Shown: positions 55,256 through 58,740 of the stretch, piece after piece
Layout: every line of letters begins with the position of its first letter
Position numbering within the stretch: the first letter of the stretch is position 1
Notes under the pieces: model-generated
What the model was told of the DNA's origin: nothing
Seen by the model: the letters and a program-made list of their open reading frames with translations, nothing else
Databases searched by the model: none
Source of the DNA: Nitrospiraceae bacterium
Lineage (GTDB): Bacteria > Nitrospirota > Nitrospiria > Nitrospirales > Nitrospiraceae
Reading direction: 5' to 3'
Assembly (NCBI GenBank): GCA_019637075.1
Contig: JAHBWI010000006.1
Coordinates: 124,001-188,000, forward strand
DNA length: 64,000 nucleotides
Translations under genes and position numbers: made by a program

Positions 55256-56254
55256 TCAGTCGCCCTCGTCGGGAGCCCCTCCGGATTTCGCAAGGTCATC
55301 CATCTTGATCTTGCCGGGATCGAACTTCGCCGCCGCCTTGCTCATCCGCTCCAGGGCCTCATCGAACGAGAGCAGCGGAGCCTCTTTGGATCGAAACCGG
55401 ATCGGATTGACCCGCGCGACCACAAAACTCTTGAGATAGGGACTCGTCAAGCCCTTCGCCTTCAAAGCCTCAACCTGTGTGACCACCAGATCATCCAGAT
55501 CCAGCAGCATGCGAGCCCGTTGTTGCCTCACTGAGATAGCGGTCCGCAGGGCTTGCGCAAGAAACGTGTCCACACGTTTCAACACGGGATGATACGCTCC
55601 GCCGCTGAAGCGAGGGCGCTCTTCATAGCAAAGCCCCAAGGTAATCAGAGCCGGTTCCTCGAACTCCAACGCATAGGTATCCTCGGTCGCCCCATCCAAC
55701 CGAGCCAGCTCTTTGTACATACGAATGACCTCGAGGGCCTTTTCACGGAGGTTGTGCGCCTTTTCCGTATTGAGTGCCAGGATCTGATAGGCCGCGGTCG
55801 CTTCCGGTACCACGATGGCCGTGATGCTCTTGGCGCCCAACGTCCGCATCGCCGAAAGGCGATGGTGTCCGTTCGGAGTCCAATACTTGGCGGCGCGGTC
55901 AGGCTGGTGGGCATGCACCGCAATAATCGGATCCAAGAATCGGCCCAGCTTGCTGATCACGGCTTCCAATTTCCGGACATGGGTATCCGACAGATTGCGC
56001 TGATAGGGGGTTGGTTCGACCAACTCGATCGGCAGGGCCGCGAGCAGGAGCCATCGCCCGCCGAACGGTTCACGGTAGGTGGCCAGCACCCGTCCCGCGT
56101 CTCCCTCAATCGTCCGTTGCAGGGCCACCACATCAGCCGGAGGCGAGACCCCCTGCAAATCTTTGGCAATCAGGCCTGTGGAGGCGCCGGCTGGTTTTCG
56201 CCGCCTCCTCGTCCCATCGGGCGGCTTGCTCGCTGTGACTTTCTTTGCAGACAT
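55256..56254 (-). CDS. ParB N-terminal-domain-like protein
   Basis: 332 residues. Central ParB/Srx-fold segment with PTPYQRNLSDTHVRKLEAVISKLGRFLDPIIAVH, TPNGHHRLSAMRTLGAKSITAIVV and NTEKAHNLREKALEVIRMYKELA; the GHHR box occupies the place of the ParB GERR CTP-binding motif. The N-terminus is basic (MSAKKVTASK, RRRRKPAG). There is no ParA nearby, so it is not a classical partition protein. It might be a CTP/ATP-dependent switch or DNA-associated nuclease; function unknown. Confidence 0.75.
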   Translation of the reverse strand: MSAKKVTASKPPDGTRRRRKPAGASTGLIAKDLQGVSPPADVVALQRTIEGDAGRVLATYREPFGGRWLLLAALPIELVEPTPYQRNLSDTHVRKLEAVISKLGRFLDPIIAVHAHQPDRAAKYWTPNGHHRLSAMRTLGAKSITAIVVPEATAAYQILALNTEKAHNLREKALEVIRMYKELARLDGATEDTYALEFEEPALITLGLCYEERPRFSGGAYHPVLKRVDTFLAQALRTAISVRQQRARMLLDLDDLVVTQVEALKAKGLTSPYLKSFVVARVNPIRFRSKEAPLLSFDEALERMSKAAAKFDPGKIKMDDLAKSGGAPDEGD

Positions 56255-57666: not shown

Positions 57667-57770
57667 ATACACCTCCCTCACGCCGAACTCAGACGAGGAT
57701 ACGGACAATGAGGTCGACTATATGCCATGTGTGGAAGGAAACGGGAGCGGAAAAGAAGGGAGCAGATATG

Positions 57771-58175
57771 CCACGGGCGACCCTTCACTACGGTGGGAGG
57801 TCGCCCGTGGTTGGCGCTTAGGACGCCGAAGTGCGTTCAATTGTGCTATCGCAGAGACCCGCTCGAGAACGAGAGACGTGGGGTTTCTTGTCGGGGGATC
57901 AATAATCCCAGGTGCTTGTGTTCCTCACCGCTCGTGCCGCCTTCGTCATACGCACAGGCGATATTCCTGTTGGTCATGTGCCGTGAGGCACCACCGGAGA
58001 AGTGTGGGGAGCGATGACCGACGAGAAGCCCGCCCTCAGTTCGGCAGGCCGTTCTGGCCCGGTGGACTGCGTTCTTCCATTGTGAACCTCCCCGGTTGAG
58101 GAGTGGCGGGGAATTGGCGGGCGCGCGCCGCTGACAAACCCCGTCACAGTGAACGAACTCTTAACTGTGGACCAC
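57771..58175 (-). ncRNA. Small transcription unit A (tandem paralogue of unit B)
   Basis: A roughly 400-nt unit on the minus strand. Order: promoter (58209-58182), about 95-nt leader, strong ribosome binding site and 14-codon ORF (58080-58036), hairpin GTGCC-N4-GGCAC (57978-57991), diverged middle, a conserved 3' element ending GGCGTCCTAAGCGCC, and a 12-bp perfect stem CCACGGGCGACC / GGTCGCCCGTGG (57799-57810, 57771-57782). From the ORF start to the first hairpin it aligns without gaps to unit B (about 66 of 103 positions identical by hand count). Could be a dual-function sRNA or a mini-mRNA. Confidence 0.55.
58036..58080 (-). CDS. Mini-ORF of unit A (14 residues)
   Basis: ATG 58080, preceded by GGGGAGG six bases upstream, encodes MEERSPPGQNGLPN. 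The N-terminal pattern M-[ED]-[ED]-x-[ST]-P-P-G-x-x-G is shared with the unit B peptide. After the TGA, nucleotide similarity to unit B continues, so either the peptide or the RNA is what is conserved. Confidence 0.45.
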   Translation of the reverse strand: MEERSPPGQNGLPN

Positions 58176-58181
58176 GCGCGT

Positions 58182-58209
58182 ATCATACGCCTGCGAGAAA
58201 ATCTGTCAA
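58182..58209 (-). promoter_or_regulatory. Promoter of unit A
   Basis: On the minus strand TTGACA (58209-58204), 16-bp spacer, TATGAT (58187-58182). Confidence 0.75.
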
Positions 58210-58283
58210 CAGGGAATTCGGCCCTAGCCGATTTCCGAACATCGTCATCGGAAGAACTTGGTCGGGCTGGGCATGAGTCATCA

Positions 58284-58316
58284 ATACAAAACGGGCCCCT
58301 ATCCGGAAGGGGCCCG
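58284..58316 (-). terminator. Rho-independent terminator of unit B
   Basis: On the minus strand CGGGCCCC, loop TTCCGGATA and GGGGCCCG make an 8-bp GC stem followed by TTTTGTATT. Confidence 0.85.
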
Positions 58317-58536
58317 CTCGTGGCGCTTGGGACGCCGTGGTCGTTATCCAATTGTCGCGGCCCTGCGAGGGCCCGTCGAAGGAAGGGAACTGTACGCTTC
58401 AGTCTGTGTCAGCCATGCGCAAGAGAATGGGTGAACCACTCACAGTACCAGCGGAAGGCTCTCGAACTGGGGCGTCGAACACGAGTGAGGTTGAGTGCGT
58501 CGCGTGTGCCGGGCGGCACCGCCCATGGAGAACCGG

Positions 58537-58608
58537 CTAGTACGACCGACGAAGCGCCTGCCGTCTGATCGACGGGCCTAGCGGGCCAGGTGGAGTAGTA
58601 TCGTCCAT
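58537..58608 (-). CDS. Mini-ORF of unit B (23 residues)
   Basis: ATG 58608 follows GAGAGGAGGG at ideal spacing and encodes MDDTTPPGPLGPSIRRQALR plus RSY, ending at TAG 58539-58537. It shares the acidic start and PPG-x-x-G pattern with the unit A peptide but has a basic tail instead of an early stop. Confidence 0.5.
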   Translation of the reverse strand: MDDTTPPGPLGPSIRRQALRRSY

Positions 58609-58711
58609 CGTCTACCCTCCTCTCTGCTATGGGATTTCGTAGGGTGCCTGGGTGACAGCCGTACGGTCTGTCCGACGCCCCACAGCCATCCGAAATAGGG
58701 CCGCACTTCCT

Positions 58712-58740
58712 TCTGTACGCTCGTTAGAAGATTCTGTCAA
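58712..58740 (-). promoter_or_regulatory. Promoter of unit B
   Basis: On the minus strand TTGACA (58740-58735), 17-bp spacer, TACAGA (58717-58712). The TTGACAGA start matches that of unit A. Confidence 0.65.

Follow-up and report, generated by a model that had tools for sequence, protein, structure and literature searches.

Tandem transcription units with a conserved Pro-Pro mini-ORF and a long-range RNA fold as members of a previously uncatalogued RNA family in Nitrospira and their order

Leader-peptide attenuators are probably the closest described counterparts of the RNAs reported here. In Salmonella, the elongation factor EF-P acts on the mgtA mRNA via proline codons in the leader ORF mgtL (PMC6460261). 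In Sinorhizobium, both the attenuator RNA rnTrpL and its 14-aa peptide, peTrpL, are able to act in trans (PMC7298713), and an upstream ORF of ilvB has been described in Corynebacterium (PMC11109978). The effect of proline codons on the ribosome depends on the residue that follows them and on the context: when E. coli lacks EF-P, PPD and PPN occur exclusively in the set of pausing PPX motifs, PPG belongs to the pauses that depend on EF-P, and strong pausing affects just 2.8% of the PPX motifs (PMC4140641). Furthermore, a polyproline stall raised downstream intrinsic termination in cells lacking EF-P (PMC5021804). RNA-based regulation is almost unstudied in Nitrospira, which drive nitrite oxidation worldwide as well as complete nitrification; in the preparation of the N. 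moscoviensis transcriptome small RNAs were removed, and sRNAs are unmentioned there (PMC6606698).

The window analysed here is a stretch of 64,000 nucleotides from a Nitrospiraceae genome. A preliminary description of it had reported two paralogous minus-strand units, each with its own promoter, leader, Shine-Dalgarno (SD) sequence, mini-ORF and hairpins, in a gap of about 1.1 kb between mscS and a DUF4412 gene. All these elements can be read directly from the DNA, and Pfam confirmed both neighbours, the first as a mechanosensitive channel gene. All the coordinates given below are on the minus strand. Unit A begins with a −35 box TTGACA (58735..58740) and, after a spacer of 17, a −10 box TACAGA (58712..58717), with GCGTA conserved in the alignment. 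The Shine-Dalgarno sequence GGAGG (58616..58620) precedes a mini-ORF of 23 aa, MDDTTPPGPLGPSIRRQALRRSY (58537..58608), which is followed by the hairpin GTGCC-GCCC-GGCAC (58506..58519; compensatory change in 4/5 pairs across the family), the near invariant 3′ hairpin P4, GGCGTCCCAAGCGCC (58322..58336; one compensatory variant), and a predicted intrinsic terminator with a T-run (58287..58316). Unit B has the boxes TTGACA (58204..58209) and TATGAT (58182..58187; spacer 16), the Shine-Dalgarno sequence GGGGAGG (58087..58093) and a mini-ORF of 14 aa, MEERSPPGQNGLPN (58036..58080). In the MFE fold, the Shine-Dalgarno sequence of unit B lies in a hairpin, CTCCTC-AACC-GGGGAG (58088..58103), whose sequence is conserved in the B-type copies of another genus. 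Further downstream are the covarying hairpin GTGCC-TCAC-GGCAC (57978..57991), P4, GGCGTCCTAAGCGCC (57813..57827), placed by sequence and by the family structure model, and a terminator-like stem (57771..57810). This stem is followed by CATATCTGCTCC, a poor U-tract, and the start of mscS is about 105 nt further.

The two units align by blastn with 67% identity over 115 nt (E 5e-10), close to the 64% estimated by hand in the preliminary description, and with 73% identity (E 2e-4) in the 3′ element. This element, ACAATTG and then GGCGTCC[CT]AAGCGCC before the terminator-like stem, was found in both units as reported. The distance of 89 nt between the ATG and the GTGCC-N4-GGCAC hairpin also holds in both, but it is the start of the hairpin, not its end, that lies 89 nt after the A of the ATG. 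As regards the promoters, the pattern TTGAC-N16..18-TA is present upstream of 56 of 74 family units, against ~1/74 in shuffled sequences and 9/74 in downstream control regions. This agrees with the claim that the units have promoters of their own. In many of the family genomes, a conserved gene near the units encodes a protein that Pfam does not match; in the window this protein has 332 aa and is encoded on the minus strand (55256-56254; cluster 3).

Homologues occur far beyond this locus. Unit B alone, used as a blastn query, matched 69 of 148 related genomes, with a best E value of 4e-50 outside its own genome. R1, a covariance model built from alignment A2 for the 5′ module, found the family in 108 of the 148, spanning 24/37 genera, usually with 1-3 copies. 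A broader model (R2) was positive in 125 of 396 genomes of the phylum, all within three families of one order, and gave no match outside the order of the window. Coherently, when 84,980 species genomes were scanned for an exact pattern, 79 stretches were returned, 78 of them of Nitrospirales type and one a chance hit in Micromonospora; the source genomes of the 78 bear the names Nitrospira, Nitrospirae, Nitrospirota or Nitrospirales, with Nitrospira moscoviensis present twice. One of these source genomes is labelled Nitrospinota (L145 / L070, JACZVJ010000010.1), and this label looks wrong.

The preliminary description had been unable to match the units to a known class. Indeed, Rfam 15 gave nothing at the units with either gathering or relaxed thresholds, the best sub-threshold match being at chance level (16.5 bits vs a cut-off of 55), and a search of the open-licence literature found no existing description of the family. 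We are highly confident that the two units belong to a previously uncatalogued family of RNAs of ~400 nt in Nitrospira and their order, in which a conserved mini-ORF is combined with a structured RNA.

The mini-ORF follows the consensus M-x-[DE]-x-[ST]-P-P-[DG]; its C-terminus varies freely in length and sequence. All 80 covariance-model hits, which are less affected by the ORF selection pattern described below, have a start codon, and Pro-Pro follows in frame around residues 6-7. The residue before Pro-Pro is T in 59, S in 16 and another in the rest, and the residue after it is D in 36, G in 36, K in 4 and another in 4; PPK, PPI, PPF or PPR replace the usual motif in some copies. In 77 nonredundant units, the synonymous share of the codon differences in codons 2-8 was 41% in frame versus 7% and 15% in the other two frames, and it dropped to 8% in codons 9-15. 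The nonredundant set was picked by a pattern fixing GA in codon 3 and CC in codons 6-7, so that conservation is biased at these positions; codons 2, 4 and 8 are free of this bias, and codon 5 is partly affected (the genome scan fixed ASY). For Leu4, each of the six possible codons is in use (CTT, CTC, CTG, CTA, TTG and TTA), and Ser5 is encoded by AGT, AGC and TCC. A Shine-Dalgarno sequence lies upstream of the ORF in the nonredundant entries, for which an SD-like string was a selection requirement. Past codon 8 there are 0-35 unconserved residues, and the ORFs are mostly 8-35 codons long. The substitution pattern thus shows that selection at the start of the predicted ORF acts on the peptide M-x-[DE]-x-[ST]-P-P-[D/G], a constraint that ends at codon 8. 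In one genus (loci L012, L013, L014, L016, L018 and relatives), many B copies stop straight after PPD (MEELTPPD and stop), and in their sisters the ORF continues to MEELTPPDQNGPQT.

The 3′ part of the ORF is also one strand of a long-range helix. In the family, P1 pairs nt 31-41 of the ORF (GGCCCGCCGAG) with a GCGGGUC strand located ~190 nt later, at about ATG+218 to +229, while P2 pairs nt ~50-64 (GGGCUUCUCGUCGG) with about ATG+186 to +200. In unit A, the strands of P1 are GGCCCGTCGA (58569..58578, within the ORF) and TCGACGGGCC (58370..58379), and in unit B they are GGCCTGC (58044..58050, within the ORF) and GCGGGTC (57856..57862). In single-sequence ensembles, P1 forms with a probability of 0.79-0.99 (0.91-0.95 in unit B). 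The 5′ strand of P2 in unit A is GCGCTTCGTCGGTC (58544..58557), whose partners GGCTGAC and GAAGCGT were located by inspection and by the MFE fold in 58394..58414; in unit B, GGGCTTCTCGTCGG (58018..58031) pairs with CCGACAAGAAACCC (57881..57894), with compensatory change. When each 5′ strand was compared with its own and with swapped partners, the z value was 4.0 for P1, for which an extension test gave p 0.0004, and 8.4 for P2, for which a four-region comparison has one weak control (z 2.2) and is otherwise flat; relatedness is only partly removed from these permutation tests.

More in general, a structure of 49 pairs was evaluated on an alignment of 49 sequences made without structural information (A4). 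Its cells were 88% paired, and compensatory change was present in 31 pairs and 154 cells versus 19 pairs and 60 (59.9) cells in shuffled alignments (0/500). Controls with slid partners had at most 69 cells with compensatory change; since the tested sequences also served to draw the model, its share of paired cells has an advantage over that of the slid models. Covariation is also present in 8/10 pairs of the terminator stem. Together, these comparisons show that a predicted domain of ~200 nt downstream, closed by the covarying helices P1 and P2, is under selection, and that the GGCGUCCYAAGCGCC hairpin and a putative intrinsic terminator end the RNA. The terminator stem of the B-type copies (window 57810-57771, and many other loci) is, with its loop CCUCCCACC, ~90% identical between genera, which is unusual for a mere terminator; the loop is C-rich and anti-SD-like.

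A local hairpin, GGCCCGCC/GGCGGGC, competes with P1 for its 5′ strand. It was dominant when the 5′ module was folded with RNAalifold, and it is 91% paired in the family. It shows little covariation, and its equilibrium probability is ~0.02. As the main fold it was rejected, since the comparison of own with swapped partners gave z −0.6 locally vs 4.0 for the distal pairing. We thus retain it only as a possible competing fold. The preliminary description had proposed a selected family of small RNAs or micropeptides and a check to tell RNA from peptide. Its proposal of selection is borne out by the homologues, by the synonymous evolution of the ORF start and by the covariation of the helices, and both sides of the check were positive, in line with an RNA that carries a mini-ORF under coding selection. 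That description did not recognise the conserved Pro-Pro-Asp/Gly as a pause motif, the participation of the ORF's 3′ part in a long-range helix, or the leader-type copies described below.

How could the mini-ORF and the fold be connected? EF-P is encoded in the same genome as the two units. Given the size of the ribosome footprint, a ribosome with its P-site at codon 7 (nt 19-21) has its leading edge at ~nt 34, which would be about four bases into P1, whose first base is nt 31. This geometry, the end of the peptide constraint at the pause site and the location of the ORF end within P1 together suggest a translation-gated folding. Each unit would be an autonomous gene for a structured RNA of ~400 nt, with a mini-ORF under coding selection in its 5′ part; a ribosome entering the mini-ORF would pause at Pro-Pro-Asp/Gly, and EF-P would relieve the pause. 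Pausing, completion of the ORF, or non-initiation could then lead to different folds, P1 or the local hairpin. In stand-alone copies the fold would set the activity or stability of the RNA and its termination, in leader copies (before ClpX-like, universal stress protein and CBS genes) the expression of the next gene, and the peptide would matter while nascent within the ribosome, rather than as a free product. We give this explanation as a whole, an autonomous RNA gene whose pause-gated fold sets its output, an even chance of being right. That Pro-Pro pausing gates the folding of P1 is plausible, and we propose it with a little less than even confidence. More speculatively, the family could represent free-standing riboregulators spread across the order, which would sense the translation of Pro-Pro (the state of EF-P, prolyl-tRNA or the general rate of elongation) by means of the pause peptide M-x-D-L-[ST]-P-P-[DG], and would switch a long-range helix to which their own ORF contributes: an "attenuator without a gene", tandem-duplicated and also placed in front of stress genes. 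A pause at codon 7, near the start, would also block re-initiation, and this may be its whole purpose, without any switch; a switch may be absent because the alternative local hairpin has little covariation and a low probability.

The position of the copies relative to genes bears on how they could act. Of the 57 copies bearing the 3′ element, 33 are followed by a gene in the opposite orientation and 24 by one in the same orientation; for the 15 copies lacking it, these figures are 3 and 12. The split is approximate, as the 3′ element was scored by a loose pattern ([CT]AAGCG), genes were taken as long ORFs, and some copies of family f3 counted as lacking the element have a different hairpin and terminator. 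Some copies without the element run straight into genes for ClpX-like proteins (L090, L092) or universal stress proteins (L087, L094); in all, a few copies are placed as leaders before ClpX-like, universal stress protein or CBS genes. The ClpX-like AAA protein of L090 and L092 has a weak zinc-finger match, and the leader-type copy that precedes it lacks a terminator. The module is therefore predicted to occur both as a stand-alone RNA, in most copies, and as a leader.

A first alternative is that the family consists of trans-acting, dual-function sRNAs, in which exposed loops (UUCUCC, UCCYAAG of P4, and CCUCCCACC of the B-type terminator) would pair with other mRNAs, the mini-ORF encoding an accessory peptide or keeping the RNA ribosome-bound and stable. 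The predicted promoter and terminator of each unit, the several conserved unpaired C-rich stretches that provide candidate loops, and the retention of both tandem copies are coherent with this reading, as are the 33 element-bearing copies next to convergent genes, which leave no cis target. Nevertheless, the constraint on the peptide extends up to PPX and no further, leaving the C-terminus free, which a nascent-chain pause explains better than an accessory peptide does, and leader-type copies ahead of genes exist. We consider this alternative unlikely, though a serious competitor to translation-gated folding.

Less probable still is a purely cis-acting transcription attenuator for the adjoining gene, with the stand-alone copies as relics. 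Units do lie ahead of mscS in the window, of FtsK (family f2), of a deaminase/ROK pair (f3) and of the ClpX-like, universal stress protein and CBS genes, and the poor U-tract of the unit B terminator before mscS would suit such a role. However, the genes that follow copies bearing the terminator element do not lie preferentially on the same strand, and this orientation rules out a strict leader model for all copies; moreover, what comes next after unit A is the promoter of unit B. The relics are also contradicted by phylogeny. In the 18 tandem loci (that of the window and 17 of another genus), the upstream copies form one clade and the downstream copies another without exception, which indicates that the duplication predates the split of the genera and that both copies were kept in place. 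Since A and B have been intact from before that split, they are not relics.

It is very improbable that the ORF is only apparent, with CCNCC kept as the anti-Shine-Dalgarno strand of a start-site hairpin and the start codon incidental. RNAalifold does pair the GG.GG of the Shine-Dalgarno sequence with the CC.CC of codons 6-7, and the GGUGGA of A-type copies is able to pair with UCCACC. Against this stands the in-frame constraint, with six codons for Leu4, four for Asp3/Glu3, and AGY, TCC or ACN for Ser/Thr5; codon usage also disfavours it, as the best anti-Shine-Dalgarno sequence, CCUCC, is rare (3/77) and CCACC dominates (codon 6 being CCA rather than CCT). A mobile repeat or chance similarity (a REP-like palindrome with a spurious ORF), to which the multiple copies per genome and the matches of the highly identical B-type terminator stem on both strands could point, is the least probable reading, as the copies number 1-4 per genome, are orthologous and often syntenic, split perfectly in the tree when in tandem, and carry compensatory changes throughout.

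Annotation is expected to miss this family, because its ORFs have mostly 8-35 codons and its RNA is absent from Rfam. It represents a deeply conserved, multi-copy and clade-specific family of RNA genes. The fixed Pro-Pro-Asp/Gly at codons 6-8, together with a covarying fold that begins at the point a paused ribosome would reach, allows a connection of EF-P-dependent pausing with RNA folding to be tested directly. Furthermore, a single module that is both free-standing and a leader of stress genes would show that attenuators and sRNAs can interconvert.

Among known RNAs, tmRNA is similar in being ~360-400 nt long with a short reading frame inside a structure, but the Nitrospira family has an ordinary Shine-Dalgarno sequence and ATG and no tRNA-like part. 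The identity with tmRNA was rejected, since there is no RF00023 match in the units and N. moscoviensis has a separate, normal tmRNA gene according to Rfam. This gene (L154:4163-4510) lies ~1.2 kb upstream of a family unit (L154:5737) on the same strand. 6S RNA was similarly rejected, as no RF00013 match occurs at the units and a 6S-like match is present elsewhere in the genome; this partial match (C1:338392-338466, 43 bits, just under the cut-off) is probably the genuine, divergent 6S RNA of the organism. OLE, GOLLD, raiA and HEARO are large structured bacterial RNAs that stand alone and whose function is unknown or long was, and the Nitrospira family is alike; to our knowledge, none of them has a conserved translated mini-ORF on its 5′ side.

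The layout of the dual-function sRNAs SgrS/SgrT, Spot 42/SpfP and VcdRP resembles that of this family: an independent transcript, a few hundred nt in length, that has its own promoter, Shine-Dalgarno sequence, small ORF and terminator, as predicted here from the conserved promoter pattern and the covarying terminator stem. The Nitrospira family differs from them in its shorter peptide, whose N-terminus is conserved and whose C-terminus is free, in an extensive closed, covarying domain of the RNA that takes in the end of the ORF, and in its confinement to Nitrospirales. A product with 8 conserved N-terminal residues and the rest free is more easily read as a nascent chain than as a released small protein.

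Leader-peptide attenuators (trpL/rnTrpL, the ilvB uORF and mgtL) have in common with the family a short ribosome-slowing ORF, alternative RNA pairings and an intrinsic terminator, the pausing being here a prediction and the competing local hairpin a candidate for the alternative pairing; the short ORF with its Shine-Dalgarno sequence is backed by the coding pattern of codons 2-8. In those attenuators the ORF carries codons of one amino acid, whereas in Nitrospira there is a fixed Pro-Pro-Asp/Gly, the 3′ part of the ORF is one strand of a helix with a range of 190 nt, and tandem copies with their own promoters are mostly without a cis gene. Indeed, a same-strand gene directly downstream, typical of attenuators, is missing in 33/57 copies with the 3′ element and present in 12/15 without it. 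We infer that the family works most like a leader-peptide attenuator; since most copies lack the cis gene, we do not file it as one. The family itself is novel, and its kind, the mini-ORF riboregulator, is already known.
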